Shown here: positions 48,532-64,000 of the stretch, piece after piece
Layout of the letters: each line of letters starts with the position of its first letter
Numbering within the stretch: position 1 is the stretch's first letter
Virus record (IMG/VR): IMGVR_UViG_3300025133_006890
Coordinates: 20,035-84,034 of that record
Source: a virus
Strand: one strand, 5' to 3'
Length of the DNA: 64,000 nt
The notes under the pieces: generated by a model
The model's database searches: none
Seen by the model: only the letters and a program-made list of their open reading frames with translations
Told to the model about the DNA's origin: nothing
Translations under genes and position numbers: made by a program

Positions 48532-49044
48532 GTGAAAATTAATAGAAGACATTTAATTAAGATTATCAAAGAAGAAATTATCAAAGAAGAAGTTCATAGA
48601 GTAATGGGCTCTAAAAAGTTAAAGATTGTAGAAGGCGCTGATGCTAGAGGAAATATGATGAAAACTGGCATTTCAAGAGAGGAGGCTGATAAAATTCATA
48701 GTAAATATGCCAATAGCCCAGCGTATGGAAACGGCAAATATTGGAAACAAATTTCAGCCATCACAAGAATGCTTGGATATAGCGCCGTAGAGGCTGAGTA
48801 TTTTTTGGATTTGGAGCTTGTTAGTTCTCTCGCGGTTGCTCCAGTGAGCGCGTTCACTGTTGCCAAGTGGTTTAAAGAGGCTGAACAAGATCCCAGCGTT
48901 AACACAGAAGAAATGCAGAATAGAATTGAGACTGAATTGCTACCGGCAATCGCCAGAGTTCAGCCGCCGGATCGCCGCGAATTTCGCAGAGCCGATCTTC
49001 AAGCCGCCTTTGCACTTATTGCTCGCACTCAACAAGTAACATGA
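48532..49044 (+). CDS. Protein with MKI..L..IIKEE N-terminal tag
   Basis: 170 aa from a GTG at 48532, with AGGAG at 48518-48522 nine bases upstream. The first residues MKINRRHLIKIIKEEIIKEE share the tag seen in five other genes here, and they contain two I-K-E sites of the T4 gp21 cleavage type (I/L-x-E). The body (residues 25-170) is helical and not recognised, with a charged end QPPDRREFRRADLQ. It may be a protein packaged into the head; the target is inferred from the tag. Confidence 0.75.
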   Translation: MKINRRHLIKIIKEEIIKEEVHRVMGSKKLKIVEGADARGNMMKTGISREEADKIHSKYANSPAYGNGKYWKQISAITRMLGYSAVEAEYFLDLELVSSLAVAPVSAFTVAKWFKEAEQDPSVNTEEMQNRIETELLPAIARVQPPDRREFRRADLQAAFALIARTQQVT

Positions 49045-49061
49045 AAATCAAATAATCACAA

Positions 49062-49154
49062 TTGACACACAAGGGAAATCCCAAACCGGGAACATACGAT
49101 AGAGCAGATAGCCTTGTTGTTGCAAAGGCCGCCTTTACCAGACTTAACGACTAA
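49062..49154 (+). pseudogene. Broken 3' end of a diverged ruvC-like gene
   Basis: A 31-codon stretch (30 residues plus TAA) that reads LTHKGNPKPGTYDRADSL then VVAKAAF... It matches the last 31 codons of the RuvC-like gene at 48412-48504 with 22 of 30 identical residues, while most of the shared codons differ at third positions. No start, ribosome site or upstream similarity is visible, so the rest of the gene is gone. It is followed by the same ACTAATTATTA element and by another tagged gene. This is an old recombination scar rather than a recent tandem copy. Confidence 0.85.
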
Positions 49155-49161
49155 TTATTAT

Positions 49162-49782
49162 ATGAAGATTCAAAAATCAAAACTTAAAAAAATTGTGAAT
49201 GAGGAATACGTTTCTCTCCTAAACGAAGAAAAGGCCCGCCTAACCTTGCTGCGAGAGTATGACAAGCTATTAGAGTCTGGTCTAAGTCGGGATCAAGCCG
49301 ACGCAAGGATTATCAATCGACTTGATGAAGGTCTTTTCGACGCCTTGCTAGAAAATATCAAAGAATGGTTGTTTGCCAAACTTCTGGAAGCTCTTGGGGT
49401 TGAACCCAACTCCATCTTGTTCAGAGCTTTGAAGAATGCTATTGGTAACATGTCGCTGGAAGATTGGAAGGGTGTTTTCTCCGGAGATTGTGAAACCACA
49501 ACTGAAGTTATTCTTGGAGCAATTACCGAAACCATAACTGAAGTTTTTGCCATTGATAATCTGGCAGATATGGTTGGGTATGAACCAAATGGAATCCTTT
49601 ATGATTTGGTCGGCGGCACAGCCCGAGAGTATGTCGGTGGCATGGTCAACAATGCAACCAAATCATTGAGAGACCCACTAACTAAGTGGATTTGCAGCTT
49701 TAAGTTTGGCGATGTGGTTGATAATCTTCGATCCGGTGCCAGTTCGGTCGTAGATTCCGCAAAAGAAGCTATAGCACAATAA
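49162..49782 (+). CDS. Protein with MKI..L..IVNEE N-terminal tag
   Basis: 206 aa from ATG 49162. The start MKIQKSKLKKIVNEEYV fits the shared tag, and V-N-E would be a loose cleavage-type site with LLNEE just after. A reading from further upstream would run into the ruvC remnant. The rest has a hydrophobic, possibly helical middle (LFDALLENIKEWLFAKLLEAL) and a glycine-rich stretch with GILYDLVGGTAREYVGG. No family recognised. It is not certain how it is translated because no good ribosome site lies ahead of it. Confidence 0.72.
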   Translation: MKIQKSKLKKIVNEEYVSLLNEEKARLTLLREYDKLLESGLSRDQADARIINRLDEGLFDALLENIKEWLFAKLLEALGVEPNSILFRALKNAIGNMSLEDWKGVFSGDCETTTEVILGAITETITEVFAIDNLADMVGYEPNGILYDLVGGTAREYVGGMVNNATKSLRDPLTKWICSFKFGDVVDNLRSGASSVVDSAKEAIAQ

Positions 49783-49850
49783 ACTATTAATCAAGATTCC
49801 GCAAGGCCCATTAGCAAAGTTGGCTGATTCTGAACTTAATAACATATCGA

Positions 49851-49879
49851 TTGACGCGATTCATGGATTCTGGTACACT
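49851..49879 (+). promoter_or_regulatory. Sigma70-type promoter upstream of primase
   Basis: TTGACG (49851-49856) and TACACT (49874-49879) are separated by exactly 17 bases, and a TGG just before the -10 adds an extended -10 element. That is close to the host consensus and would drive early or middle expression. Transcription would start at about 49886-49887, on the primase ATG, so the message would have no or almost no leader. The gap 49783-49850 holds nothing else I can identify. Confidence 0.72.
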
Positions 49880-49891
49880 TGATCCATGAAT
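49859..49891. repeat. 10-bp perfect inverted repeat over promoter/start
   Basis: ATTCATGGAT (49859-49868) and ATCCATGAAT (49882-49891) are exact reverse complements with a 13-base spacer. The repeat is centred in the -10 element, the left arm lies in the promoter spacer, and the right arm covers the ATG of the primase. It fits an operator for a DNA-binding regulator. About one such repeat is expected by chance in 64 kb, so it is the location that makes it notable. Confidence 0.6.
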
Positions 49892-50827
49892 AAGCTCACT
49901 TTTATACAAAGCTTGCTCGGGCAGTGTCTCGTCGTAGGTGACGAACATATCTACACTTGTCCGTTTTGCAAACACAATAAAAAGAAATTATCAATTAACT
50001 TTTCCAAAGGCAAATGGAAATGCTGGATTTGCGACAAGGCTGGCAGAAGCATCAAGACGCTGGTTCGTCAGGTTGGTAGCGCTCATCATATTAGAGAATG
50101 GGCGCGCATAACAGATTCGGTTGATTTGTCTGAAATCGGAGATATTAATTTAGAAAATCTCTTCAAAAAAGAGGAAAAAGTAAAACAGATCGTTACATTA
50201 CCAGACGGATTCGTTTCGCTTGCAACGAGGAAGAAAGTTCGTGGCTCTAGAAAAGCCATGGCATATCTCAAGAAGCGCCGAATTTCATTTTCAGACTTGT
50301 TAACGTGGAAGGTCGGAATTTGCACAAAAGGCACGCACGCTGGCAGAATCATTGTTCCATCGTTTGATCTCAATGGAGATTTAAATTATTTTATTGGGCG
50401 AGCTTATGATGGCGCGTGGCCAAGGTATATGAATGCCGGCCAACCAAAAAAAGAAATTGTGTTTAATGAATTGAGCTTGGATTTCTCCAAAGAAATCACA
50501 ATAGTTGAGGGAGTGTTTGATGCTATCGTCGCAGGCGAGAACAGTGTTCCCCTTCTGGGATCAACTCTGAGAGAGATGGATTTATTGTTCAAGAGATTGG
50601 TTGAAAATAATACGACAGTCTATATGGCTTTGGACCACGACGCAAGAAAGAAGCAGGACAAAATCGTTGAGCTTTTGTTGCACTATGGCTTGACAGTGTA
50701 TGTTATCAATACGTTTGGCTTTCCAGATGTGGGTGAGATGACAAAGGAACAATTTGTGAAAAGAAAACAAGAGGCTACGCTGTCAGATTCGTGGAGCCTT
50801 TTCGCATCTGCAATGGCAAATGGGTGA
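49886..50827 (+). CDS. DNA primase, T4 gp61/DnaG-like
   Basis: 313 aa. The N-terminal zinc site is CPFC (residues about 24-27) with CWIC near 49-52, followed by the Toprim core: EITIVEGVFDAIVAG near 207, then ALDHDARKKQ near 249, which provide the metal-binding Glu and D-x-D. It makes RNA primers for the lagging strand. The start at 49886 gives a zinc site at the normal distance from the N-terminus. No Shine-Dalgarno sequence lies ahead, in line with the leaderless message suggested by the promoter. Confidence 0.88.
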   Translation: MNKLTFIQSLLGQCLVVGDEHIYTCPFCKHNKKKLSINFSKGKWKCWICDKAGRSIKTLVRQVGSAHHIREWARITDSVDLSEIGDINLENLFKKEEKVKQIVTLPDGFVSLATRKKVRGSRKAMAYLKKRRISFSDLLTWKVGICTKGTHAGRIIVPSFDLNGDLNYFIGRAYDGAWPRYMNAGQPKKEIVFNELSLDFSKEITIVEGVFDAIVAGENSVPLLGSTLREMDLLFKRLVENNTTVYMALDHDARKKQDKIVELLLHYGLTVYVINTFGFPDVGEMTKEQFVKRKQEATLSDSWSLFASAMANG

Positions 50828-50833
50828 TTGGAA

Positions 50834-50959
50834 ATGAATATTGAAGAGGGAGACGTATTCATAAATCGCGGACCAATGGGCAGAGAAGTGTATGTTATTT
50901 CTTATGGGCCGACCCTGGTTGATACAGAGTTTTTTAGCAATTGTGAGAAGGTTAATTAA
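50834..50959 (+). CDS. Small 41-aa protein
   Basis: Short ORF running from ATG 50834, six bases after the primase stop, to a TAA that abuts the ATG at 50960. The residues (MNIEEGDVFINRGPMGREVY and the following VISYGPTLVD) look like a small beta-barrel. The tight fit between neighbours and the sensible amino acids argue for a real gene. No family recognised. Confidence 0.6.
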   Translation: MNIEEGDVFINRGPMGREVYVISYGPTLVDTEFFSNCEKVN

Positions 50960-53900
50960 ATGAAAATACTACAGATAAGCGATATTCATGTGAGAAATTA
51001 TAAGTATCATCATGAATACAAGACAGTTTTTACAGAACTCTACGAGAAAGCGAAGCAATTAAAGCCAGACATCATTGTGAATACTGGTGACACGTTCCAC
51101 ACGAAGTCAAAGATTTCTCCAGAAGCGTATAAGATGGTTTCAGATCTGTTCAGGAATCTGGCAGACATTGCGCCATTGCATGTTATTTTGGGCAATCACG
51201 ACACAAATGTGAAGAATACCAACAGGCTCGACTCTGTTAGCCCAATCATCGAGGCTTTGAATCATGATAATATTCATTATCATAAGAATTCTGATGAGAC
51301 ATTCCTTAATGGGTTTGCTTTCAATACTCTGTCCATATTGGACCCCGAGAGCTGGACGGCTCCAACCAATCCAGAAATGGTTAATATTGCTCTGTATCAT
51401 GGCGCAGTCCAAGGAGCAAAGACAGACGCCGGCTGGACAATGGAACACGGAGAGATCAGCCTCGACTTCCTTCAAAAGTTCGATTATGCATTGCTTGGGG
51501 ATATTCACAAAACCAATCAAGCTTTAGATGAGAAGGGCAAGGCGAGATATCCCGGCTCCTTGATTTGCCAGAACTTTGGAGAAACAAACGATAAAGGTTT
51601 TCTGTTTTGGGACATTAAAGACAAGGACGCCTTTACATGCAAACACATTAAACTACACAACCCAAAACCATTTGTTTCCATTACGCTAACAAAAGACGGC
51701 AGGCTGCCATACAAGCGAACACTTCCAAAGGGCGCTCGTCTAAGACTTATCTCAGAAACTAAGTTGTCGTTACACGTTATACGTCGGGCCATGGAGGCAG
51801 CAAAATATAAATATAAGCCAGAGATCGTATCATATTTGAATCGCTCCAATTCGGAGAGGATTAATGTAGAAAGCGAAGTAAGTTCAATTCTTAATAAGAA
51901 TTTGCGGGAAGTAAGCACTCAAGAACAGCTCATTGAAAAGTATCTTCAAGATTATAGTGTGACCTCCGAATCTTTGAAGGAAGTATTTACTCTAAATAAA
52001 AAGTACAATTTGTTGGCCAAGCAGGGCGAAGAAACCCAAAGAAATATTTCGTGGAAGATCAAGAGTTTTAAATGGGATAACCTATTCAATTATGGTAGTG
52101 GCAATTATATTAATTTTGAAGGTCTGTCGGGAGTTGTTGGCATCTTTGGCAAGAACTATAGTGGCAAAAGTTCTGTTATTAATGCTCTTTTGTATACTAT
52201 GTTTAACTCAACTGCTAAAAACATTAGAAAGAACTTCAATGTCATCAACGAACATCGCCAAATTGGCTCTGGAGAAATTGAAATCGAGGTTGGTGCTAAA
52301 GTATATAAGATTGTTCGTAAATCTGAGAAGTATGTCAAAAAGCTCAGAGGGAAAGTGACAGACGAGGCAAAAACAGAAGTAGATTTTACGTCTTATGACA
52401 CAATTTCAGGGCAAACAAATGTTTTAAACTCCACAGACCGAGCAGCCACTGATAGAGAGATCCGTAAAGTATTTGGAACAATTGAGGATTTCCTCTTGAC
52501 TTCCGTAATGCCACAACTTGGGGCTCTTAAGTTCATCAACGAGGGCTCAACAAAGAGAAAGGAGATCCTCGCTAAGTTCTTGGACTTAGAGTTGTTCGAA
52601 CAGAAGTTTAAGTTGGCGCACGAGAACGCTGCCGAAACAAAAGCTCTGCTTAGGAAGATGGGCGATCATGATTATGATTCAAACATTAAAGCTTCCATGT
52701 TAGAACTAGCAAAGAATGAAATTAAAACGGCTGGCAAGAAGTCGGCGTGCGAGGCTCTCCAAGAATTGATAACAACTCTGAGAGGAGAAATAGAAGAGAA
52801 CCAGAGAAAGATTGATTCAATCCCAACAGATCCAATTAACATTCACAGCATTGTGTCATCAAGAGATTCCTTTCTCCGAGACGTTATAACAAAGAAAGAG
52901 ATGAACGATTTGCTGCTAACACAGATAGACAACAGCAAAACCTTTGTAGCTAACGCAGACACTTTTCTTCAGAAGTTCAACATTGATGAATACCGCTCTG
53001 TTGTCGAGGAAGAGGCTTCTAAGACTCTTGAGTGGGCAGCCCTAGACAATCACATCACAGACAAAAAGAAGACCTTTAAAATCTATCAGAACAAGAAGAA
53101 GATGATTGAGGGAATTCCCTGTGGAGATTCTTATTTGGCAACTTGTAAGTTTATCAAAGACGCCTATGAGTCTTCGAAAAAGATTGATGGTTTGGAAAAG
53201 AACATACGAGAACTTGAGCTTGAATTCAAAGCTCTGGACAAATACATTGATGACTTGAATATCACCGCAGCTAAGGATTATATTAAAAAGTATGATGATC
53301 TGGTTGATAAGAAGAGAGAACACGAATCTGACATTGTGAAGAAGAAACTACTGATCCAAAAGAGCATTAATGAAATCAACTTGCACGAATCAGAGATAGT
53401 GGATTTGCAGGAAAAAATTGAATATTATAATGAGAATAAAGATGCTATCGAAAACCACCACAAACTTGAAAGGCAAAAGAAAAAACTAGCCAAAGAAGTA
53501 GAGAACCAAGAAGATGAAATGAAAAAATGCTCTGAAGAAATTTTAGAGCTGTATAAGACTCACGGTTCTTTAGAGGAAAGAGTTAAGAATTCCAACGAAC
53601 AAAAGGAAGAAGTTGAGAGGTTGCGCCTGGAGCATTCTGCTGCGGATCTATTCATGCGATGTATGCACAGCAACGGTATCGCGTTTGATATCATTAAGAA
53701 GGCGCTGCCACACGTTAATGACGAGATTGCTAAAGTCTTGGCCAATATCGTTGACTTTAAGGTGTTTTTCGAAACGGACGGCAACAAGCTTGATATCTAC
53801 ATTCAACACCCGAAACATCAACCAAAGCCACTAGAAAATGGTTCGGGAGCAGAGAAAACCCTTGCAGCTATGGCAATTAGGATTGCAATTCTAAGTATTA

Positions 53901-54112
53901 GCAACATGCCAAAGTGCAATGTGTTGATTTTGGATGAGCCAGGGTCGGCTCTGGACGAGGATCATTTAGAGAGCTTTTCAAGAATTATTGAAATGTTGAA
54001 AGGATATTTTGACACTTGCATGATAATTACTCATGTAGGCGCTTTGAAAGATATTGTGGATCGAGAGATTTCAATTGAGAAGAAAAAAGGATTTGCATAC
54101 ATAAACGAGTGA
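50960..54112 (+). CDS. Mre11-Rad50 (SbcD-SbcC, gp47-gp46) fusion nuclease
   Basis: 1050 aa with both subunits of the recombination nuclease in one chain. Residues 1-345 are the Mre11/gp47 phosphoesterase: QISDIHVRN near 6, NTGDTFHTKS near 41, LGNHDTN near 77, ALYHGAVQ and LLGDIHKTNQ. Residues about 360-1050 are Rad50/gp46: Walker A FGKNYSGKSS near 396, a long coiled coil, a hook with CGDSYLATC near 720, coil again, the signature NGSGAEKTL near 958, Walker B NVLILDEPGSALDED near 990 and TCMIITHVG after it. It prepares DNA ends for strand exchange and may degrade host DNA. The hook spacing (C-x7-C) is wider than the usual C-x2-C. Confidence 0.92.
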   Translation: MKILQISDIHVRNYKYHHEYKTVFTELYEKAKQLKPDIIVNTGDTFHTKSKISPEAYKMVSDLFRNLADIAPLHVILGNHDTNVKNTNRLDSVSPIIEALNHDNIHYHKNSDETFLNGFAFNTLSILDPESWTAPTNPEMVNIALYHGAVQGAKTDAGWTMEHGEISLDFLQKFDYALLGDIHKTNQALDEKGKARYPGSLICQNFGETNDKGFLFWDIKDKDAFTCKHIKLHNPKPFVSITLTKDGRLPYKRTLPKGARLRLISETKLSLHVIRRAMEAAKYKYKPEIVSYLNRSNSERINVESEVSSILNKNLREVSTQEQLIEKYLQDYSVTSESLKEVFTLNKKYNLLAKQGEETQRNISWKIKSFKWDNLFNYGSGNYINFEGLSGVVGIFGKNYSGKSSVINALLYTMFNSTAKNIRKNFNVINEHRQIGSGEIEIEVGAKVYKIVRKSEKYVKKLRGKVTDEAKTEVDFTSYDTISGQTNVLNSTDRAATDREIRKVFGTIEDFLLTSVMPQLGALKFINEGSTKRKEILAKFLDLELFEQKFKLAHENAAETKALLRKMGDHDYDSNIKASMLELAKNEIKTAGKKSACEALQELITTLRGEIEENQRKIDSIPTDPINIHSIVSSRDSFLRDVITKKEMNDLLLTQIDNSKTFVANADTFLQKFNIDEYRSVVEEEASKTLEWAALDNHITDKKKTFKIYQNKKKMIEGIPCGDSYLATCKFIKDAYESSKKIDGLEKNIRELELEFKALDKYIDDLNITAAKDYIKKYDDLVDKKREHESDIVKKKLLIQKSINEINLHESEIVDLQEKIEYYNENKDAIENHHKLERQKKKLAKEVENQEDEMKKCSEEILELYKTHGSLEERVKNSNEQKEEVERLRLEHSAADLFMRCMHSNGIAFDIIKKALPHVNDEIAKVLANIVDFKVFFETDGNKLDIYIQHPKHQPKPLENGSGAEKTLAAMAIRIAILSISNMPKCNVLILDEPGSALDEDHLESFSRIIEMLKGYFDTCMIITHVGALKDIVDREISIEKKKGFAYINE

Positions 54113-54124
54113 GACAATCATAAT

Positions 54125-54286
54125 ATGAACATCAGCAGAACAGAATTACTTCAAATTATCCGAGAAGAAGTCGAGAATGAGTTGGACAATATAATTGATC
54201 CAATCCGAGAAGAAGATGAAGATTGGTATGGTGATTGTGGGTGTCCAGAGCGGGAACCAGCAGTTAATCCAGTTCCAACACCTTAA
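54125..54286 (+). CDS. Small 53-aa protein with MNI..L..IIREE tag
   Basis: ATG 54125, 12 bases after the fusion nuclease, to TAA 54284-54286. It begins MNISRTELLQIIREEVENEL, matching the tag (I-R-E site) and is too short to hold much else: the remainder is acidic with a WYGDCGCPE and a Pro-rich end. Cleavage at the tag would leave a 38-residue acidic peptide. Such a small size with the tag is the strongest sign that the tag itself matters. Function unknown. Confidence 0.6.
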   Translation: MNISRTELLQIIREEVENELDNIIDPIREEDEDWYGDCGCPEREPAVNPVPTP

Positions 54287-54309
54287 CAAACCAAAAGGAA
54301 TATAGTAAA

Positions 54310-54528
54310 ATGGGAATCAAGAAGGCACTACTAAAATGGCACTCACGAAAATGGCAAGTATTTTTAATCGCTACAATCCTTTTCATTTTGGGACCGATCG
54401 TAGATTTGATGTGGGTTCCGGTTTGGGCTTGGGTAACAATATCAACAGCATATGTTGGCTCAGAAGCTTATGTTGATCGCTCTCATAAAATGGCAAGTGT
54501 GTTAAAACCAAATGTGGATAACGGCTAA
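54310..54528 (+). CDS. Small two-helix membrane protein, possible holin
   Basis: 72 aa. A basic N-terminus (GIKKALLKWHSRKWQ) is followed by two hydrophobic segments (VFLIATILFILGPIVDLMW and WVTISTAYVGSEA). Small size and position ahead of two other membrane-anchored proteins suggest lysis, but no holin family motif is visible. Preceded by an AAGGAAT ribosome site near 54295. Confidence 0.5.
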   Translation: MGIKKALLKWHSRKWQVFLIATILFILGPIVDLMWVPVWAWVTISTAYVGSEAYVDRSHKMASVLKPNVDNG

Positions 54529-54910
54529 AAAAGTTTGGGCATGGATTAAGGCATATTGGTATGTTCCAGTTTCGATTATTGCGTCTGTAATCTTGTGGCG
54601 AATCTTTAGAGAGGACATCGGAGAACCAACTAGGCTTTTGGCCGACGCTAAGGATTCTCACAAAAAAGAGGTTGAAGCCCTAGAGAAGATTCGAGAAGAA
54701 GAGAATCAGAAAAAAGATAAAATACTCATAGACTATTACAATATAGTGACAAGACTGGACAAAGAGTATAAAGAACAAAATCTTACTTTGCGCGAATGGG
54801 AAAGAAAGAAAGTAGAGAAGATTATAAAAAGAACAGTCGATGATCCCGAAGCCAGGGCAGCAGAAATTGCAGAACAGTTTGGCTTTCAGGTGGTACACAT
54901 AGATGATTAA
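54512..54910 (+). CDS. Rz-like membrane-anchored coiled coil
   Basis: 132 aa with one N-terminal membrane segment (residues about 16-32, WYVPVSIIASVILWRIF) followed by a long charged coiled coil (SHKKEVEALEKIREEENQKK) and a LREWERKKVEKIIKR helix. This is the layout of an inner-membrane spanin, though other membrane-tethered helical proteins look the same. It overlaps the gene before by 17 bases and the gene after by 8. Confidence 0.5.
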   Translation: MWITAKKVWAWIKAYWYVPVSIIASVILWRIFREDIGEPTRLLADAKDSHKKEVEALEKIREEENQKKDKILIDYYNIVTRLDKEYKEQNLTLREWERKKVEKIIKRTVDDPEARAAEIAEQFGFQVVHIDD

Positions 54911-55364
54911 GCGTGTTATCTCAGTAATAACCGCAATCACTATCCTGCTGTTTCCAACGGCAGCTTTCACACAACAAGGAAGAATAGCACCAATCAAGAA
55001 GGGGCAAGCCGCTCCTTTTAATGGATTGGTTTATGATTATAAAGCTGATGCGGTTATGTCTGCCCGCCGAGAAGCTTCCGAAGCTAGACACAAAATTGAT
55101 AAAGAGCACGCTTTGGCCTTGAAAGACGCCAAGCACAAAGCTCAACTGCAATCTGTTATTGCCTCTAAAGAGGCAGCCCAAAAGAGGTATAATGAGATAG
55201 GGAAGATTAAAGACAACAGGATGACATCTCTTGAGAAGCAGGTTTTAGACCACAAGGATTACTCAATGTGGTGGTTTTCTGGAGGGGTCATCGGTGGAAT
55301 ACTAATCACTCTGGCATCAGCGTGGGCACTCGGACAGGCCACACAAGTGGATCGCAGCAATTAA
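54903..55364 (+). CDS. Secreted, C-terminally anchored protein, lysis candidate
   Basis: 153 aa. Residues 1-22 look like a signal peptide (basic start, then ISVITAITILLFPTAAFTQ). The following GRIAPIKKGQAAPFNGLVYD is a segment I associate with small phage envelope proteins of the lysis region. A charged, helical middle and one C-terminal membrane segment (WWFSGGVIGGILITLASAWAL) follow. So both ends reach the membrane with the body outside. Partner of the two genes ahead; role inferred. Confidence 0.5.
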   Translation: MIKRVISVITAITILLFPTAAFTQQGRIAPIKKGQAAPFNGLVYDYKADAVMSARREASEARHKIDKEHALALKDAKHKAQLQSVIASKEAAQKRYNEIGKIKDNRMTSLEKQVLDHKDYSMWWFSGGVIGGILITLASAWALGQATQVDRSN

Positions 55365-55762: not shown

Positions 55763-56306
55763 CGTGATGGACATCATTAACGCCATTTCGTCAGCAATGC
55801 AGAATTCTTATGATGGAGCAGTTGATGACAAGGGCGAACCTGTTAAGATCGGACTGAATAGAGAAGTTGACAACGTTGTATTAGATTCCAGAAGTGGTAT
55901 CATGGACGGTTTTTGTATTCGGTTTGGCAGTGACAAGCTTATTGTTTCTTATCATGGAGAGGTTAGCATGAAGGATCTTCATCGCGATGGGCCAAAGAAG
56001 TTTGAGCGCGACATTGAAGATAAGTTTGCCGACATTGCTAAGTTCCTTAAGAAAGAATATAAGAAGCACGCCAAAGGAGCGCTCAAGCTAGTTTCACAGG
56101 GCGATTGTGAAGCGAAGATTCAAAGGTTATCAAATATTAGAAACTGGGTGACAGCCAGTAAAGTATATAAGATTGGTAATACAAATGAGCCAGTTGGCGA
56201 TCAGAGTGGAAACACGGGCCCAAGAACGGTTGATAAGGCAGTGGCGGATTTCCTGGCTCTATCGACAGACAAGCGACCAAAGAACGCAAAAATAAAAAAT
56301 GATTAA
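55737..56306 (+). CDS. Protein of unknown function before terminase
   Basis: 189 aa from ATG 55737, preceded by TGGAGG at 55722-55727 which supports this start rather than the GTG at 55719. The middle is beta-rich (DSRSGIMDGFCIRFGSDKLI) and then helical and basic (FLKKEYKKHAKGALK), and the end is polar. Position immediately before the large terminase suggests a possible small terminase subunit, but I see no helix-turn-helix to prove it. Confidence 0.6.
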   Translation: MSKEKKTNNVMDIINAISSAMQNSYDGAVDDKGEPVKIGLNREVDNVVLDSRSGIMDGFCIRFGSDKLIVSYHGEVSMKDLHRDGPKKFERDIEDKFADIAKFLKKEYKKHAKGALKLVSQGDCEAKIQRLSNIRNWVTASKVYKIGNTNEPVGDQSGNTGPRTVDKAVADFLALSTDKRPKNAKIKND

Positions 56307-57895
56307 TGGCAAGAAAACTAACCAAATCAGAAATCAAAAAAGAGATCCTTAAATGTGGTAAGGATCCTGTCTATTTTATTAACAATTATGTAAAAATTAT
56401 CCACCCGATGCGGGGCTTGATCCCTTTTAGTCTTTACCCCTTTCAAGAGGAAGTTGTTAAGGATTTCAAGAAGAATAGGTTTAATATCATTCTCAAGGCC
56501 CGACAGCTTGGTATCTCAACGACAATTTCCGGCTATATTGCTTGGCTTATCTTGTTCCACCGTGGCAAAAATGTCCTTGTCATGGCCACCAAGCTCGACA
56601 CAGCCGGCAATCTAGTTCGTAAAGTGAAACTGGCAATGAAGAGTCTGCCAAAGTGGCTTACGATATCAAAGATCAACATCGACAACAGAAACAACTTTAA
56701 ACTAGACAACCAATCACAAGTAAAGGCAATCTCAACAAGCAGTGACGCCGGCCGTTCAGAGGCGTTGTCGCTGATGGTTATCGATGAAGCTGCCTGGATT
56801 GAGAATATGGACAAGCTGTGGGCAGGATTGAAGCCCACACTAAGCACGGGCGGCGATTGCATAATTGCCTCAACGCCATACGGAGTAGGAAACGCTTTCC
56901 ATAAAATCTTCTCAGATTCGGAGAGACAGATAAACAACTTCAATTCAATTGTTTTACCGTGGGATGTTCACCCAGATCGAGATCAGGAATGGTACGATGA
57001 AGAATGTAGAACGATGTCGGATAGAGAAATTGCTCAAGAGCTTAATTGCAATTTCAATATGTCTGGCCAATCTGTTATTAATTCAGAAGATTTGTTGTGG
57101 ATAAAGGAAGCCATTAGAGAGCCCAAATATAGAACGGGATTCGATAGGAACTTATGGATTTGGGAATCTTATAAGCTTGGTGAGAAATATTTCCTTGTTG
57201 CAGATGTGGCAAGGGGTGATGGTGCAGACAACTCCGCCTTTGTTATCATCAATTCTCGAAACTTAGAGATCGTTGCTGAATATTATGGACAAGTTCCGTC
57301 TGATATGTTTGCTCCCCTAATCAATGAATCGGCGAGAGAATATGGATCATGCCTTGTTGTCATTGAAAACAACAAGGGCGAAGCCGTCATTAATAAGTTG
57401 CGAGATTTAAATTATCCTAACTTGTATTACTCTCGCAAGACTTCACACGAGTATGTTGAGCAGTATGCCGCAGAGGGTCAGAGTCAAGTAATCCCAGGAT
57501 TTTCAATGAGTCAAAAAACTAGACCATTTGTGATTTCAAAACTAGAAGAAGTCATTAGAAACAAGATGCTTAAGACTTATTCGCTAAGGCTTTACACAGA
57601 ACTTGAAACCTTTATTTGGAATCATGGTCGACCTGAAGCTATGCGAGGATATAATGATGATTTGACGATTGCCGTGGCGATTGCTAGTTGGGTTCACGAA
57701 ACGGCTTTAATTAGCAATCAATATGATTTAGAATATAAAATGGCACTTGCTTCGAGCGTTATGACATCCAAGACATCAATGGATACTAAAATCTCTGGCA
57801 TGACGGGATACAGAAAGAAAAATCCATATGGAAATTTACCAAAGAAAAAAGATAAAGATGCGAAGATCATTGGACTTCCATTCTTCCGGGGATAA
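56306..57895 (+). CDS. Large terminase subunit, gp17-like
   Basis: 529-aa DNA packaging motor. The N-terminal ATPase has an adenine-binding FSLYPFQEEVV segment near 37, a Walker A variant LKARQLGIST near 63-72 and Walker B LMVIDEAAWIEN near 155. The C-terminal nuclease has VADVARGDGADNSAF near 299 with its first Asp, CLVVIENNKGEAVI near 350 with the Glu, and NDDLTIAVAIA near 453 with the last Asp. Headful-type packaging is typical of this group. Slightly shorter than T4 gp17 (610 aa). Confidence 0.94.
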   Translation: MARKLTKSEIKKEILKCGKDPVYFINNYVKIIHPMRGLIPFSLYPFQEEVVKDFKKNRFNIILKARQLGISTTISGYIAWLILFHRGKNVLVMATKLDTAGNLVRKVKLAMKSLPKWLTISKINIDNRNNFKLDNQSQVKAISTSSDAGRSEALSLMVIDEAAWIENMDKLWAGLKPTLSTGGDCIIASTPYGVGNAFHKIFSDSERQINNFNSIVLPWDVHPDRDQEWYDEECRTMSDREIAQELNCNFNMSGQSVINSEDLLWIKEAIREPKYRTGFDRNLWIWESYKLGEKYFLVADVARGDGADNSAFVIINSRNLEIVAEYYGQVPSDMFAPLINESAREYGSCLVVIENNKGEAVINKLRDLNYPNLYYSRKTSHEYVEQYAAEGQSQVIPGFSMSQKTRPFVISKLEEVIRNKMLKTYSLRLYTELETFIWNHGRPEAMRGYNDDLTIAVAIASWVHETALISNQYDLEYKMALASSVMTSKTSMDTKISGMTGYRKKNPYGNLPKKKDKDAKIIGLPFFRG

Positions 57896-57904
57896 TTATA
57901 ATAC

Positions 57905-59935
57905 ATGAGAAACACCACAACATTCTATAAGAATCCTAACAACCCAAGATCAACTCTGTTTAAGAGGCTGACAAAGTTATTGTCAGGCCCGCTGGTTAAC
58001 TACCGCCAACAGCAAGTACACAGAGATAGGCGACATCGATTAGACAAATACGCTAAAAAGTTTAAGTCTGCTTCGGGACAGCAGTTCCGAAAGAAATCAT
58101 ATAACCCTTATGATAACTTGACCGCCAACAGAATGGTCAACCAGAATAGAGCTGAAAGATATTTGGATTTTGACCAGATGGAGTACGATCCAGTCCTTAG
58201 TTCTGCAATGGATATTTATGCCGACGAGATTACAACACACAACGAGTTCGGCGACTTGCTAACCATTGATTGTGCCAACGAAGAAATCAAAGCAATTCTC
58301 CATTCTCTATTCTATAAAGTATTAAACGTTGAATTCAACCTATACAACTGGGCAAGAACCATGATCAAATATGGTGACTTCTTTATGTATCTAGACATCG
58401 ACGATGATATGGGAGTCAAGTCGGCTATTGGCCTGCCAGCCCCCGAGATTGAGAGAATGGAGGGCGAAGACCCTTCCAATCCAAATTACGTCCAATTCCA
58501 GTGGAATAGCGCTGGTTTAACTCTTGAGAATTGGCAAATCGCACACTTTAGAATTCTAGGTAATGATAAATATTCTCCATATGGAGTCAGCGCTTTGGAC
58601 CCCGCACGCCGCGTGTGGAGGCAGTTGAGCTTATTAGAGGATGCGATGATGGCTTATCGTATCGTAAGGGCACCCGACCGTCGTGTGTTCTATATTGATG
58701 TGGGTGGCATTGCGGCCGAAGACATTGAAGAGTTCATGCAAAAAACGATTACCTCTATGAAACGGCATCAGGTTGTAGACCCCGACAAAGGACAGGTTGA
58801 TCTTAGATACAATCCCGCTTCCATCGAGGAGGACTATTTTATTCCAGTCCATGGCGGCATCAGCAACACCAAGATTGATACGCTTCAGGGCACAAGCTGG
58901 GCAGGCGACACTGACGACGTTCAATACCTTTTGAACAAGTTGTTTGCAGCAATTAAGATTCCAATGTCATATCTGATTCGTGGCGAAGGCGGCGACGAAG
59001 ACAAAACAACATTGGCCCAAAAGGATGTTAGGTTTGCTAGAACGATTCAAAGGTTGCAGAGGTCGTTGATTTCTGAGTTGGAAAAGATTTCAATTATCCA
59101 CCTGTATACGATTGGATTTCGCGGTGATGACTTAACTTCGTTTAAGTTAAAACTATACAACCCTTCTAAGATTGCACAACTACAAGAGATGGAACATCTT
59201 AGAACAAAGCTAGAGCTTGCACAGAGCGCGAAGGATTCATTCTTCAGTGGTCGTTGGATTGCCGAGAATATTCTTGATATAACAAAAGAAGATTTCCTTA
59301 GAAATCAAAGAGAGCGTTATTATGATGCGAAAGTCCAAGCTTCCATTGAAGCAGTTGCTGCTGTTACCGGAGAAGGTGCTGGTATGGGCGAGCTTGGTGC
59401 CATGGGAGGCGGCTTCGAAGAGGGTGAACTCGGTGATATCGGTGGAGAAATGGACCTTGGCGGAGAAGAGGAAGTTGATATGGGAGGCGGCGGCGAAGCT
59501 CCTGACGCCGGAGGCGGGTTTGAAGGCTTAATGGCAACTCCCGGCGAAGCTGGTCCCGCAGCTAAGCGAGATGATGACGCTAATGGGTGGGAATGGAAGA
59601 AAACCAGAAAGGTTGGCGCAGATGGAAAAATTCACACCATAACAGACAAGTCAAAAGGAAAGTGGTACAATCCCGTGACAACGGACAAGAGAGACATGGG
59701 AGCTAGAAAAAAGAATATGCTTTCTCAAGGCGGCTCTCGCCAGGGCGGAAGAAAGAAAACCCATCCAGGCTACCACGCCTTAACTAGTTTAAGCAAGGGT
59801 ACTATTTCAGAATCTAAAGCTACTTATAATAACATGGTAACGGAAAGAAAGTTAATTAATACGAACAACGAAGTTGAAAAGCTTTTAGATAGCCTGGAGA
59901 GCATAAATGATGACAATGCAGAAGAAAAAAATTAA
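57905..59935 (+). CDS. Portal vertex protein, gp20-like
   Basis: 676 aa. The N-terminal region SYNPYDNLTANRMVNQN, RAERYLDFDQMEYDPVLSSA and MDIYADEITTHNEFGD is diagnostic of T4-type portals. The crown region YLIRGEGGDEDKTTLAQKDV further on fits too. T4 gp20 is 524 aa; the excess lies in a C-terminal extension after residue 475 that is Gly/Glu rich (GAGMGELGAMGGGFEEGELG) and then basic and polar. That tail may be a flexible interior extension. A TAATTATAATAC spacer separates it from terminase. Confidence 0.94.
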   Translation: MRNTTTFYKNPNNPRSTLFKRLTKLLSGPLVNYRQQQVHRDRRHRLDKYAKKFKSASGQQFRKKSYNPYDNLTANRMVNQNRAERYLDFDQMEYDPVLSSAMDIYADEITTHNEFGDLLTIDCANEEIKAILHSLFYKVLNVEFNLYNWARTMIKYGDFFMYLDIDDDMGVKSAIGLPAPEIERMEGEDPSNPNYVQFQWNSAGLTLENWQIAHFRILGNDKYSPYGVSALDPARRVWRQLSLLEDAMMAYRIVRAPDRRVFYIDVGGIAAEDIEEFMQKTITSMKRHQVVDPDKGQVDLRYNPASIEEDYFIPVHGGISNTKIDTLQGTSWAGDTDDVQYLLNKLFAAIKIPMSYLIRGEGGDEDKTTLAQKDVRFARTIQRLQRSLISELEKISIIHLYTIGFRGDDLTSFKLKLYNPSKIAQLQEMEHLRTKLELAQSAKDSFFSGRWIAENILDITKEDFLRNQRERYYDAKVQASIEAVAAVTGEGAGMGELGAMGGGFEEGELGDIGGEMDLGGEEEVDMGGGGEAPDAGGGFEGLMATPGEAGPAAKRDDDANGWEWKKTRKVGADGKIHTITDKSKGKWYNPVTTDKRDMGARKKNMLSQGGSRQGGRKKTHPGYHALTSLSKGTISESKATYNNMVTERKLINTNNEVEKLLDSLESINDDNAEEKN

Positions 59936-60761
59936 GAGCAGCCATAATAAAAAGAGAAATACTGCGTTTCTTTTTGAAGCTCTGGTAAAAGAACTTTCAA
60001 AAGCAGTTGTCTCAGACGATGAGCGGAAGAAAAAAGCAGTATCTAAAATAATTAAAGAGCATTTTTCTAAGGGTAGCATTTTATACAAAGAGCTGAGCTT
60101 ATATCGACAATTGTATGAGTCGAACGATTTGAATCAGGCAGACGCAGAGAGGATTCTACAAGAAGTCCGCCGCGTTTATGCTGGTTTGGCACAACCAAAC
60201 ATCTTTGCAGCCCAAAGCAAGCTAATTTCCCAAGTAAACAAGACCGTCACACCGAAGGTGTTTGGCAATTTTGTTCCAAACTACAAGGCTATTGCTACGA
60301 TAGCTCAAATATTTGACGATAAGGTGCCAATTAAGAGCCGAGTTATCCTAGAAGGTAAGATGATTCGTCAGATGTCATCCCCAAAAAATCAATCTGTGCT
60401 TAAAACCCCCGCCGTGAACACAACTACTTTGAAAATATTTGCCAAAAAGTTTAATGAGACTTACGGGCATCTGCACGAAGAGCAGAGAACCTTGTTGTTC
60501 AAGTATATTAATTCTGTTTCAGACGGCGGCCTCCAATTGAAGGTTTTTCTAAACGAGGAAATCCCCAGACTAAAGGAAGAGTTGACAAAAGCGAAGGTTG
60601 TTGAGGAAATTGAGTCTGACAAGTCGATGGTCAAAAAGACTGATAAAGTTATTGAAACGCTAGACGGGTTTAAGGGGCAGTTCATGACGGAAGATGTTCT
60701 TAAGAAGGTTCTGAAGATTCAAGATCTTGTAAGGGAGATCAGCATAGATGCAGATAGTTGA
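59907..60761 (+). CDS. Probable head-assembly protein between portal and protease
   Basis: 284 aa, helical, basic N-terminus (MQKKKIKSSHNKKRNTAFLFEA). ATG 59907 has GGAG about eight bases upstream and overlaps the portal end; 59910 and 59919 are alternatives. Long helices (AERILQEVRRVYAGLAQ, FLNEEIPRLKEELTKAK) suggest a scaffold or core protein like T4 gp67/gp68 in position, but I cannot show homology. Ends in an overlap with the next gene. Confidence 0.6.
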   Translation: MMTMQKKKIKSSHNKKRNTAFLFEALVKELSKAVVSDDERKKKAVSKIIKEHFSKGSILYKELSLYRQLYESNDLNQADAERILQEVRRVYAGLAQPNIFAAQSKLISQVNKTVTPKVFGNFVPNYKAIATIAQIFDDKVPIKSRVILEGKMIRQMSSPKNQSVLKTPAVNTTTLKIFAKKFNETYGHLHEEQRTLLFKYINSVSDGGLQLKVFLNEEIPRLKEELTKAKVVEEIESDKSMVKKTDKVIETLDGFKGQFMTEDVLKKVLKIQDLVREISIDADS

Positions 60762-61362
60762 AGAAGGTGGCGTTAAACTTATTATTGCTTCGGATCCGGT
60801 AGAAGTACCAGAAACGGATCAACAGATATCTTTTAGCGTAAATGTCAAAAACAGCAAGCCTTTGAAGATAAAGATCAAAGAGCCAATTCGTATTTATTTA
60901 AATATGAGGCGATCTCTCGACGGTCATTATATGATTTTTGATCACCCGCTATATGATATTGTGATCATGCCAAAGAAAAATAAGATTGCGACTTTCTCCA
61001 AAAAGGATGTGACCATTGATCCTTATGGATATCAAGATCGGCTGTTTGATTATTTGAGAAGAAAGGGGCTTATTAAACCAGAAACAATTCAAGGTGGTTC
61101 TGTGTTTGGCTCCTTTGAAGCTTCGTACCCGATCAACAATAAGATCGATACAATCCAAGCAATCTTCCTGTCTCTGTATTCATTTTTGAAAGATGAAACA
61201 AAAGACATGAGAAAGGTGCTTGATTATGAACATGACATTGACGATATGTATGTAAATCCGGATGATGAAGATTCGACAGAGCTTGGAGAAGTGCCACAAG
61301 CAAAGAAGAAGGGCTCAATAGATAACTCATCCCAACCATATGGTTTGATTTACAGGATCTAA
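60748..61362 (+). CDS. Hypothetical head-region protein
   Basis: 204 aa. Residues 1-100 look beta-rich (GGVKLIIASDPVEVP, QQISFSVNVKNSKPLKIKIK), residues 100-170 more helical with an FDYLRRKGLIKPE segment, and the C-terminal 30 are acidic and polar. No family recognised. It lies between the portal block and the prohead protease and is followed directly by a membrane protein gene. Confidence 0.6.
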   Translation: MQIVEEGGVKLIIASDPVEVPETDQQISFSVNVKNSKPLKIKIKEPIRIYLNMRRSLDGHYMIFDHPLYDIVIMPKKNKIATFSKKDVTIDPYGYQDRLFDYLRRKGLIKPETIQGGSVFGSFEASYPINNKIDTIQAIFLSLYSFLKDETKDMRKVLDYEHDIDDMYVNPDDEDSTELGEVPQAKKKGSIDNSSQPYGLIYRI

Positions 61363-61674
61363 ATGTTAAGCCTAATATACTTCATATTATCAACAGCTGG
61401 AATGACTTGGATTCTTGTCAACGGCCACATATTCAGCAAGATAAGGCCGAAACATGAGTTCTTTCATTGTAGTGCTTGTGTTGGCTTCCATGTGGGCTGG
61501 CTAGTTTGCTTACTTTCTCAGTTTACAGCACTAATTACAATAGAGTTGTGCGTAGTGAACTTATTGCTCTGCGCGTGCATAAGCACAATCACGAGCTATT
61601 ATATAGATAAGCTTGTTGGCGACGATGGGATTAATGTGAATTATGAAAATTCAAGAATTGAAGAATCTGATTGA
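61363..61674 (+). CDS. Small multi-pass membrane protein, HCSAC-GFH type
   Basis: 103 aa with three hydrophobic segments (about 2-20, 41-62, 66-88). HEFFHCSACVGFHVGWLV resembles the F-x-C-x-x-C-x-G-F segment of DUF1360-like phage membrane proteins. Its location within the head block is unusual for a membrane protein. Its 3' end overlaps the tagged gene that follows by 32 bases. Confidence 0.6.
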   Translation: MLSLIYFILSTAGMTWILVNGHIFSKIRPKHEFFHCSACVGFHVGWLVCLLSQFTALITIELCVVNLLLCACISTITSYYIDKLVGDDGINVNYENSRIEESD

Positions 61675-62092
61675 AGAAGAGCTTATTAGAGCTATGATCA
61701 CAGAAGAGATTGGATTCTCTAGCAACGATACTGCCGAGTGGGGCAACTTTTATACAAGCGGCAATGGACTTGAAATCACTCTACCGTTGGCCGAAATGTC
61801 CAACGGCTCATGGCCAATGTTGGAGTTAACTTCCGAAATGGTGGGACAATTAACAGACTTTTTGGAATCCCATTTCCAGTTTAGCGAGGCTGGCGATTTA
61901 GAATTGACCAAAGACCCCAACATTCTGCATCGTTCGGAAATGATTTTAGATGAAGTTGTGGTTGAAATGGAATCGGGCGGCAATCTTACTTTTGCTGCAA
62001 ATAAAGACGAAGAATTCACAGATTCAATTGTAGTGAATTTGGTATTTGATGAGGTATATAAGTTATATACATTTATAAGGGGTAAATTATGA
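61643..62092 (+). CDS. Protein with MKI..LIEEEL N-terminal tag
   Basis: 149 aa beginning MKIQELKNLIEEELIRAMIT, a shorter form of the shared tag with L-I-E and I-E-E sites and a further I-T-E shortly after. The body is acidic and beta-rich (GNGLEITLPLAEMSNGSWP; LDEVVVEMESGGNLTF) and not recognised. It lies directly ahead of the prohead protease region, which fits a protein present in the prohead. Confidence 0.72.
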   Translation: MKIQELKNLIEEELIRAMITEEIGFSSNDTAEWGNFYTSGNGLEITLPLAEMSNGSWPMLELTSEMVGQLTDFLESHFQFSEAGDLELTKDPNILHRSEMILDEVVVEMESGGNLTFAANKDEEFTDSIVVNLVFDEVYKLYTFIRGKL

Positions 62093-62172
62093 GTAATCTA
62101 AGCGGCATTAATGTTGTTATTGAAAACCGATGGTTTTTGAGACCACCGACGCTTTGTTGTAAAGGGAAGTGA
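62089..62172 (+). CDS. Possible tiny 27-aa ORF
   Basis: ATG 62089 overlaps the previous stop as ATGA, with a GGGG ribosome-like site at 62079-62082, and ends TGA at 62170-62172 just before the protease start. It reads MSNLSGINVVIENRWFL then a Cys-Pro-rich tail. It may be a real peptide or merely a coupling reading frame that keeps ribosomes moving into the protease gene. Confidence 0.35.
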   Translation: MSNLSGINVVIENRWFLRPPTLCCKGK

Positions 62173-62177
62173 CGACT

Positions 62178-62792
62178 ATGGAAGATAAGAAATATCTATT
62201 GAGGGAATATTATGCATTGTGTGAAGGCGGTGTTTGTAAGGATCTGTTGACAGAAGAGCAGAAGCTCGATGTCAAAGAGAATAATGCTATGTATTTAACA
62301 GGTGTTATTCAAAAAGCAGACGAACTCAACGGCAATGGCCGCAAGTATCCTGAGAAAGTTTTGATGAGAGAAATGAAGAACTATCAGAAATTGATCAACG
62401 AAAACAGAGCGTTAGGCGAGTGCGACCATCCAGAAACGTCCGTTGTTGAACTCAAAAATGTGAGCCATATGCTAACCAAATATTGGACAGAAGGCAAGAA
62501 CGTAATGGGAACAATCAAGCTGCTTGAAACACCAATGGGCAAGCTTCTCAGATCGCTCGTCGAATCAGGCGTTCAGCTTGGCATTTCATCAAGAGGTTTA
62601 GGATCTGTTAAAGAAGTGAATGGCGAAACCATCGTTGAAGACGACTATCAAATCGTTTGCTACGATGTGGTTTCAGATCCTTCAACAACTGGAGCTTTTA
62701 TGAGCTTGGCAGAAAATAAGATGCCACCAAACAAGGTCTTTTCAAAGGCCGACCGCATCAACCGCAAACTGAATGCGATATTGGATGATTAA
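62178..62792 (+). CDS. Prohead core protease, gp21-like
   Basis: 204-aa serine protease of the T4 gp21 type that cuts scaffold and internal proteins after I/L-x-E motifs during head maturation. GNGRKYPEKVL near 56, LGECDHPETSVVEL near 80 with the catalytic His (DHP) and LGISSRGLGSVKE near 140 with the serine give the herpesvirus-assemblin-like catalytic pattern, and DYQIVCYDVVSDPSTTGAFM near 157 is typical of the family. Start ATG 62178 is favoured by AAGGGAAG eight bases upstream over the in-frame GTG at 62169. Length matches T4 gp21 (212). Confidence 0.92.
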   Translation: MEDKKYLLREYYALCEGGVCKDLLTEEQKLDVKENNAMYLTGVIQKADELNGNGRKYPEKVLMREMKNYQKLINENRALGECDHPETSVVELKNVSHMLTKYWTEGKNVMGTIKLLETPMGKLLRSLVESGVQLGISSRGLGSVKEVNGETIVEDDYQIVCYDVVSDPSTTGAFMSLAENKMPPNKVFSKADRINRKLNAILDD

Positions 62793-63245
62793 ATGAAACT
62801 AAGCAAATCACAACTAAGAGAAATGATCAAACCAATGGTCAAAGAGGCAATCAATGAAGTATTGTTGGAACAGGGAGTTCTGTCCACAATCATTTCAGAA
62901 ATCGTGGTTGGCCTGAATAAGAACGTTATTGTCGAGCAACAGCAGGATCGGGCCATTAATCAGGCCAAAGTGGCCCAATCACCCCAGCCAGCCCAGCCCG
63001 GTCAACCAGACCCTCTAACCGAGCGAATGAACAAGATGAAGCTGGAAAGAAAGGCGATGCTAGATAGGATTGGTAATTCTTCAATCGGAGGTGTAAACAT
63101 CTTCGAAGGTACGACGCCAGCCCTGGAAGACCCGACAGCGGGTGATCCATTAGGTGGGCAAGACCCCAACGACCCGGGCGTTAATATTGATGGATTGCTT
63201 GGTTTGGTCGGAAACAAATGGAAGAATAGTCTAGTTACTAAGTAG
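62793..63245 (+). CDS. Scaffold/core-like protein with MKLSKSQL tag
   Basis: 150 aa starting immediately after the protease, where T4 has the scaffold gene 22. It begins MKLSKSQLREMIKPMVKEAI, a divergent member of the shared tag that lacks the exact I-x-E-E (here V-K-E is close). Residues 50-90 are Gln/Pro rich (AQSPQPAQPGQPDP) and the end is Gly/Asp rich. At 150 aa it is shorter than T4 gp22 (269). Scaffold role is inferred from position and composition. Confidence 0.68.
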   Translation: MKLSKSQLREMIKPMVKEAINEVLLEQGVLSTIISEIVVGLNKNVIVEQQQDRAINQAKVAQSPQPAQPGQPDPLTERMNKMKLERKAMLDRIGNSSIGGVNIFEGTTPALEDPTAGDPLGGQDPNDPGVNIDGLLGLVGNKWKNSLVTK

Positions 63246-63253
63246 GAAATAAA

Positions 63254-63454
63254 ATGGCAATCAATGTTCAAGTAAAGGCAAGATATAATGAAAGTCCGGA
63301 GAGACTAATCAGAAGGTTTAGTAAAAAGGTTAGAAAAGAGGGCGTCATAGACGACATAAAAAGCAAAATGTATTATGAAAAACCTTCCATCAAACGCAGG
63401 CGTAAAGAGGCCCGAAGTAGATTCCTTCGAACTTTAAAAACGGAGAATAAATAA
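63254..63454 (+). CDS. rpsU: Ribosomal protein bS21 homologue
   Basis: 66 aa. NESPERLIRRFSKKVRKEGV, then MYYEKPSIKRRRKEARSR, aligns along the full length with bacterial bS21, in which an RRF-K-x-x-x-x-x-G-V core and a (F/Y)YEKP-x-x-(R/K)(K/R) motif are diagnostic. bS21 sits near the anti-Shine-Dalgarno end of 16S rRNA in the small subunit and helps start translation. A phage copy could exchange into host ribosomes and favour phage messages. It lies inside the head operon, between the scaffold-like gene and another head gene. Viral bS21 genes are known elsewhere. Confidence 0.87.
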   Translation: MAINVQVKARYNESPERLIRRFSKKVRKEGVIDDIKSKMYYEKPSIKRRRKEARSRFLRTLKTENK

Positions 63455-63457
63455 GCA

Positions 63458-63922
63458 ATGGTAAATACACCAAATTTTAGACATTATGTAGCGGGATTAA
63501 ACTCCGTTGGTTCATACCAGATGAGCGGTATTCCATATGCCTCTTCGTCTATTTCTATTGGAAACTCAGGAGAATCTGCCTATAAGGTTGAATTCCCCTA
63601 TGTTTCTAGAACTGTAACTGTTCGTAACGATCTAGCAACCGCATCTGCCGATACTGCTTTGCGCGTAGGCTTTAGTGAGAACGGCGTTAAAGACGCTGAA
63701 GGCAATAAGTATTATTTCGTCTTAACCAATGGCGAATCATATACAGGTGAGTGGAGAATCGAGGATTTATATTTGCTTAGCGATAGCCCCACTGCTGGCA
63801 TTACCGCTTCTGTTATCGCATCGTTGACTGGCATCCCGACAGGTTCAGTCCCCGGCATTAGTGACGGAACAGATCCGGAAGGCACTGCCGATAACTGGTC
63901 GGGTTCAATTGGTATTGGATAA
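63458..63922 (+). CDS. Head-region structural protein candidate
   Basis: 154 aa, beta-rich: YQMSGIPYASSSISIGNS, YKVEFPYVSRTVTVRND and FVLTNGESYTGEWRIEDLY. This is like a small capsid decoration or fibre domain, with a Gly/Asp/Ser-rich end. Its place after the protease, scaffold-like and bS21 genes, near where T4 has the major capsid gene, supports a virion role. The AATAAATA at 63445-63452 is close to the T4 late consensus but it overlaps the bS21 end and is too near the start to count as evidence. Confidence 0.6.
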   Translation: MVNTPNFRHYVAGLNSVGSYQMSGIPYASSSISIGNSGESAYKVEFPYVSRTVTVRNDLATASADTALRVGFSENGVKDAEGNKYYFVLTNGESYTGEWRIEDLYLLSDSPTAGITASVIASLTGIPTGSVPGISDGTDPEGTADNWSGSIGIG

Positions 63923-63926
63923 AAAA

Positions 63927-64000
63927 ATGAAAGTAAACAAAAAACTATTAATGAGAGTTATCAAAGAAGAAGTTGAAAGTTACTTTGAAGAAGAGGGATT
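63927..64000 (+). CDS. Protein with MKV..L..VIKEE tag, 3' end outside window
   Basis: Open reading frame from ATG 63927 to the window edge, 24 codons visible. It starts MKVNKKLLMRVIKEEVESYF, the shared tag with a V-I-K-E-E site, and continues acidic. The stop and body lie beyond base 64000. Confidence 0.7.
   Translation, partial: MKVNKKLLMRVIKEEVESYFEEEG

Follow-up and report, generated by a model that had tools for sequence, protein, structure and literature searches.

In bacteriophage T4 the three internal proteins IPI, IPII and IPIII, small and otherwise unrelated, begin with a common peptide of 10 residues, the capsid-targeting sequence (CTS), at whose end lies a hydrophobic-x-Glu site for the S77-type prohead protease gp21. 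Gp21 cleaves after L/I-x-E (PMC9026906). Conservation of the CTS reportedly does not extend to other core proteins, and the major capsid protein gp23 loses an N-terminal region of 65 residues (PMC9958956). A distant S77 relative trims many head proteins of the giant phages phiKZ and SPN3US by removing N-terminal propeptides after Glu, in phiKZ after S/A-x-E, and some of the trimmed proteins enter the host (PMC9026906). Here, a recurrent N-terminal segment, hereafter called the tag, is described from a viral DNA stretch of 64,000 nucleotides (the window), which comprises bases 20,035-84,034 of IMG/VR record IMGVR_UViG_3300025133_006890 (84,034 bp) and ends where the record ends. With a probability of roughly three in four, we consider the tag, about 22 residues long, to be a capsid-targeting propeptide that is removed by a gp21-type protease.

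Like the T4 CTS, the tag is a short peptide shared by unrelated small proteins, has a hydrophobic-x-Glu site at its end and is carried by variable genes lying apart from the head genes. It differs in being longer (about 22 residues against 10) and more frequent (20-29 tagged genes in each of the best-sampled genomes against three in T4), in being joined to acidic bodies and, unlike the CTS, in resembling the N-terminus of a head protein. The tag probably works like the CTS, to which it is not homologous by sequence. With the propeptides of phiKZ and SPN3US it would share removal after Glu by an S77-type protease, cleavage of the tag being predicted from sequence. In these two phages we know of no tag that many unrelated proteins have in common.

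Tagged N-termini of the window

A position-specific profile of 22 positions was built from relatives, leaving out the window and its nearest relative (L016), and was used to score every candidate start along the contig (2,911 in all). An initial annotation had listed six proteins with a common N-terminal pattern, and all six starts were present (Table 1). Four starts (48532, 49162, 54125 and 62793) scored between 20 and 33, while the fifth-best start of the contig reached -12.6 and the best of 58,220 starts in a shuffled control -1.8; the truncated gene at 63927, scored separately, reached 25.2. The shared motif is therefore genuine, and one of its members, 61643, is weaker. The latter scored about -9 with a one-residue gap and gained its high score with a gap of two residues, and is probably a shortened variant of the tag. 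Judged by the profile, the contig holds four clear tags, one shortened tag and one conserved gene resembling the tag; this last gene, at 62793, had been counted among the tagged proteins and is instead a conserved head gene encoded right after the protease.

The GTG start at 48532 is preceded by a clear AGGAG, and its protein has a later candidate cut, IVE↓G, at residue 34. The start at 49162 lies 48 bases inside the longest open reading frame (ORF), which opens at TTG 49114, and is supported by the use of the same start in the L016 homologue; L20 and E22 of this protein are invariant across three homologues, and its structure was predicted, with moderate confidence, as all helix and gave no PDB match. 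No homologue of the 61643 protein was found among the loci examined. A C-terminal motif shared among the tagged proteins was also looked for, and none was found. Compared with L016, the window has gained one tagged gene (48532, missing from L016 and inserted between two conserved genes) and carries one with a different body (54125, whose place in L016 is taken by a tagged protein in whose body no similarity was detected). Tagged genes thus behave as an accessory, fast-changing repertoire.

Table 1. Tagged genes and head genes of the window, with scores on the tag profile
Feature	Coordinates	Strand	Score	Details
Tag of 170-aa orphan protein	48532..48597	+	28.0	ORF 48532-49044, GTG start; MKINRRHLIKIIKEEIIKEEVH
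Tag of 206-aa helical protein	49162..49227	+	31.3	ORF 49162-49782; MKIQKSKLKKIVNEEYVSLLNE; candidate cut L20-N-E22
Tag of 53-aa protein	54125..54190	+	33.3	ORF 54125-54286; MNISRTELLQIIREEVENELDN; synteny with L016
Shortened tag of 149-aa orphan protein	61643..61705	+	20.5 (two-residue gap)	ORF 61643-62092, just upstream of protease; MKIQELKNLIEEELIRAMITE
Tag of protein cut by contig end	63927..63992	+	25.2	ORF running off contig end; MKVNKKLLMRVIKEEVESYFEE
Conserved head gene, probable prohead-core protein	62793..63245	+	19.7	At least 33 homologues downstream of protease; N-terminal helix resembled by tag
gp21-type S77 prohead protease	62169..62792	+		Start GTG 62169 or ATG 62178; PF03420, 100 bits; phrog_207 head maturation protease, E 1.7e-54
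T4-type large terminase (context)	56306..57895	+		PF03237, E 3e-9
T4-type portal protein gp20 (context)	57905..59935	+		PF07230, 233 bits

Tag anatomy and the candidate cleavage site

The set of tagged ORFs turned out to be far larger than the six proteins of the initial annotation, which had supposed a phage-wide set, and to extend across many phages. Among the loci sampled, 498 unique tagged ORFs, a lower bound that includes neighbouring starts, fell into 397 body clusters with 342 singletons, by single-linkage clustering that depends on the BLAST cut-off. One conserved segment is in this way joined to hundreds of unrelated bodies. The profile starts at the initiator Met and the consensus is MKITKxQLKQIIKEELxxVLxE↓G; in the sequence logo, M-K-I/L-T-K-x-Q-L-K/R-Q-I-I-K-E-E-L is followed by a looser part, rich in V/L at residues 19-20 and with E at 21-22, and conservation drops to background from residue 23 on. 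The pattern used for collecting the tags fixed or restricted positions 2, 3, 8, 11, 12, 14 and 15, and left free the residues T4, K5, Q7, K9 and Q10 and the region 16-22.

In this free region, 295 of the 493 tagged proteins had a hydrophobic-x-E site with its Glu at residues 19-24, as compared with 73.5 after shuffling (about 4-fold), and 150, as compared with 21.2, had such a site followed by Gly, Ala, Ser or Gln (about 7-fold). The enrichment was largely specific for Glu: with Lys, Gln, Asn or Ser in its place the site occurred at 1.3, 1.25, 1.7 and 1.1 times the shuffled frequency, and with Asp it was depleted (41 against 57, 0.72-fold). This depletion is telling because in the T4 CTS an Asp at position 10 prevents processing while leaving targeting intact (PMC9026906). 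The residue after the boundary Glu was Gly in 21%, Ala in 17% and Gln in 10% of cases, compared with 6%, 7% and 3% after other Glu residues. The segment thus ends in a putative cleavage site, hydrophobic-x-Glu and a small residue, which matches the L/I-x-E rule of T4 gp21. In the gp23 homologues of the relatives, L/I/V-x-E followed by A/S/Q/T/V occurs at the position of FLTE↓A in T4 gp23 (residue 65), and the tag site follows the same rule as these phages' own major capsid proteins, with G, A, Q or S favoured next in the tag. The initial annotation had placed cleavage at the I-x-E within the motif (I12-x-E14). This is probably not the main site, since Glu15 almost invariably comes next; enrichment was seen instead at the second hydrophobic-x-E, at about residues 21-22.

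A feature of translation or of DNA without protein function, such as AT-rich starts aiding initiation or recombinational copying of gene starts, could also generate similar gene starts. Within genomes, synonymous differences between tags amounted to 0.23-0.46, below the random expectation of 0.50-0.64, and some copying of tags has therefore occurred. Synonymous divergence nevertheless reached 46-80% of random expectation while 67-78% of residues were identical, and conservation extends to residue 22 with a Glu-specific end. This explanation is disfavoured and scarcely credible.

Association with the S77 protease

The gp21-like protease gene that had been noted near 62178 was confirmed (Table 1). 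S77 is encoded by 21 of the 24 tagged contigs that reach 40 kb or more and by five of 26 controls (Fisher p 1.2e-6), the controls being contigs of similar size chosen by an unrelated Lys-rich start pattern. Portal was found in 20 of these 24 contigs and gp23 in 19, and the phages carrying the tag are T4-like, with T4-type portal, S77 protease and gp23. The strict tag occurred in none of the 26 control contigs. Its absence from all 21 controls lacking S77 speaks against the possibility, raised in the initial annotation as a refutation, that the motif is equally common without a gp21-type protease.

Two further propositions were rejected. The tag is not evidently present in phages without S77: the three tagged contigs lacking S77 also lack portal and gp23, and with UvsX, DnaB-like helicase, NrdA, DNA polymerase and baseplate wedge among their genes they look like other parts of large genomes. 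Nor does a tagged gene stand beside every S77 locus, as only 10 of 29 loci have one within 3.4 kb.

A tagged uncultured phage of 484 kb (L339, LR756508.1) also has S77. Its S77 match is split into two pieces of a 576-aa ORF, and its portal gene is surrounded by a cluster of variant tags in which position 5 is Glu (MKLTERRLKRII).

Resemblance to a protease-adjacent head protein

The gene at 62793 belongs to a family that is conserved directly 3′ of the protease in dozens of phages and usually begins MKKSELKKLIKP (at least 33 homologues). Its N-terminus was predicted as one confident helix (residues 5-26) ending in L-L-E-Q-G. No confident Pfam or PHROGs match was obtained for the family. Its members contain 8.4 hydrophobic-x-E sites per protein against 3.2 after shuffling, with conserved LLEEG and LFEGT, and being full of L-x-E sites, as T4 core proteins are, the family probably represents a degraded prohead-core protein by analogy with T4 gp22, gp67 and gp68. 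The gene order of portal, small genes, S77 protease, further core gene(s) and major capsid protein is also that of T4, the relation of the family to gp67, gp68 and gp22 being one of position.

Profiles of 30 residues were aligned by hhalign to compare the tag with N-terminal sequences from 15 conserved gene sets. The protease-adjacent head protein matched with a probability of 95% in its G019 form (e.g. MAKLSRSQLKSIVKECLVEILEEG) and of 74% in its window form, as compared with 17% for terminase and less than 1% for twelve other families; E-values are uncalibrated at this profile length, and the 13 other families served as the control. The profiles show a resemblance of the tag to the N-terminal helix of this head protein, which is most simply read as copying of a core-assembly segment by the tag. 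By mimicking that helix, tagged proteins would enter the core of the growing head; at maturation the S77 protease encoded by the same phages would cut at about residue 22 and free the mature proteins inside the head. Less firmly, many of these proteins may be ejected with the DNA into the host, like T4 IPI, and act early in infection. From the sequences we infer packaging, cleavage and ejection alike.

Observations weighing against the propeptide

Several observations weigh against a cleaved capsid-targeting propeptide. About a quarter of the tagged proteins lack hydrophobic-x-E at residues 17-32 (378 of 493 have it), and several sites of the window are followed by Glu or Gln and not by Gly or Ala. 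Five control contigs encode S77 and lack the strict tag, so that the protease does not require the tag; as the tagged contigs are related, the link with S77 could in part reflect common descent. The argument for a core role of the 62793 family consists of its position and site content. The N-termini of the T4 internal proteins (MKTYQEFIAEA) missed the tag profile, with scores of -45 to -50 for ipI, ipII and ipIII without gaps and below -9 with any gap, and none of ten named cultured phages searched has the broad tag pattern. Compared with the other long ORFs of their loci, tagged bodies were the more acidic (median -5.6 per 100 residues, as opposed to -1.6), and in this they contrast with the internal proteins of phages related to T4, which have been described as basic (PMC9026906). 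Finally, hydrophobic-x-x-Glu was likewise enriched (2.3-fold), and the hydrophobic-x-Glu signal could in part show where a helix ends.

This last point also favours an alternative in which the tag is an uncleaved amphipathic helix docking onto another partner (tail, membrane, host protein or replication machinery), with its E-G end as a helix cap. Gly is a common cap after helices, and the tag, a helix in the structure model, has an amphipathic character (mean helical moment 0.41, compared with 0.25 in windows of the bodies). A docking helix does not, however, predict the link with S77 or the match to the protease-adjacent head protein, and the boundary is enriched for Glu and not for Asp, Gln, Asn or Ser, with Ala and Gln as well as Gly next. 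It was considered unlikely. The S77 link, the Glu-specific site and the absence of the strict tag from S77-less controls make a targeting peptide removed by gp21, as first proposed in the initial annotation, the best-supported reading, with its details corrected as described above.

Distribution and cargo

The strict DNA pattern of the tag was found in at least 120 IMG/VR stretches, with less than one occurrence expected by chance according to our own uniform-base calculation. In bacterial and archaeal genomes it occurred in only 11 stretches of 257 billion bases, and literal tag strings were not found in the literature searched. Querying phage records by tblastn with the tag alone gave no hits, an outcome that we ascribe to low-complexity filtering. 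A bacterial origin of the tag was rejected on account of this near-absence, and two metagenome-assembled genomes (MAGs) with long tagged contigs also contain S77, for which reason these contigs are probably mis-binned phage. The two contigs, NHDW01000006.1 (305 kb; L391/L397/L398) and PBIO01000025.1 (101 kb; L393/L396), carry many tagged genes and are binned as Methylococcaceae TMED69 and Halobacteriovorax, respectively. A short tag-like N-terminus, MKKSQIVKAVQEVLEEMSTTG, begins the product of a small gene (L031:8660-8881) located between those for portal and protease in the cultured Flavobacterium phage immuto, which may offer an experimental entry point.

Tagged genes are organized in runs. 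A 134-kb contig has 29 starts scoring at least 12 and, at a score threshold of 20, sampling of 28 kb from a 289-kb contig gave 23 tagged starts and sampling of 24 kb from a 305-kb contig gave 25. Of 340 pairs of successive tagged genes, 339 were co-directional, and the gap within pairs had a median of 9 bp. In G019 the tagged genes begin directly after gp23, and many others lie in runs distant from the head genes.

Among the 148 longest tagged cluster representatives, at least 139 had no Pfam match. Nine Pfam families were matched, each in a single member and none of them a replication enzyme: four pentapeptide/decapeptide repeat models (one protein, L054:3606-4229), two GNAT models, DUF6321, DUF5824 and RMF. 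In PHROGs, 22 families were matched, of which only one, endolysin, has a function name. The RMF, acetyltransferase and endolysin matches are single hits.

Tagged proteins might also be packaged as structural or scaffold parts that are consumed during assembly in the manner of T4 gp67 and gp68, and not ejected as effectors. Some tagged genes adjoin the protease or gp23, and T4 core proteins are largely degraded (PMC9026906). On the other hand, 397 unrelated, fast-swapping body families, with tens per genome and many of them in runs far from the head genes, resemble accessory cargo, and consumption as scaffold seems rather unlikely. We propose tentatively that a large group of uncultured T4-like phages may load each virion with tens of unrelated, fast-changing effectors through a label copied from a prohead-core protein, which the protease would release for delivery to the host. 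If this is true, any reading frame captured behind the label would become virion cargo, and the label would seem to have arisen by mimicking a core protein. A named class, probable virion cargo, could be recognized from sequence for hundreds of so far anonymous phage proteins, with predicted mature N-termini, and these proteins would provide a list of candidates for host takeover and anti-defence. The internal-protein strategy, known for three proteins of T4, may operate far more broadly in environmental phages.

Head module and neighbouring genes

A T4-type head module occupies the right part of the window in the order terminase, portal gp20, small genes, S77 protease, 62793, a ribosomal protein S21 homologue and a small gene at 63458 (Table 1). 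The window holds portal and S77, and the contig stops before gp23. Microcystis phage Mel-JY01 has a similar order of head genes, extending to gp23. The S21 homologue (63254-63454; PF01165, 56 bits) has a counterpart at the matching position in Mel-JY01 and homologues in many relatives. Upstream of the tagged gene 48532, the stretch 47989-48504 encodes a 171-aa protein with the N-terminus MILGLDVSTNCTGITVLD, which gave no Pfam match and appears RuvC-like by eye. A single ORF of 1,050 aa at 50960-54112 fuses a calcineurin-like (Mre11/gp47-type) phosphoesterase with a Rad50/gp46-type ATPase, which in T4 are separate genes, and the same fused ORF is present in L016.

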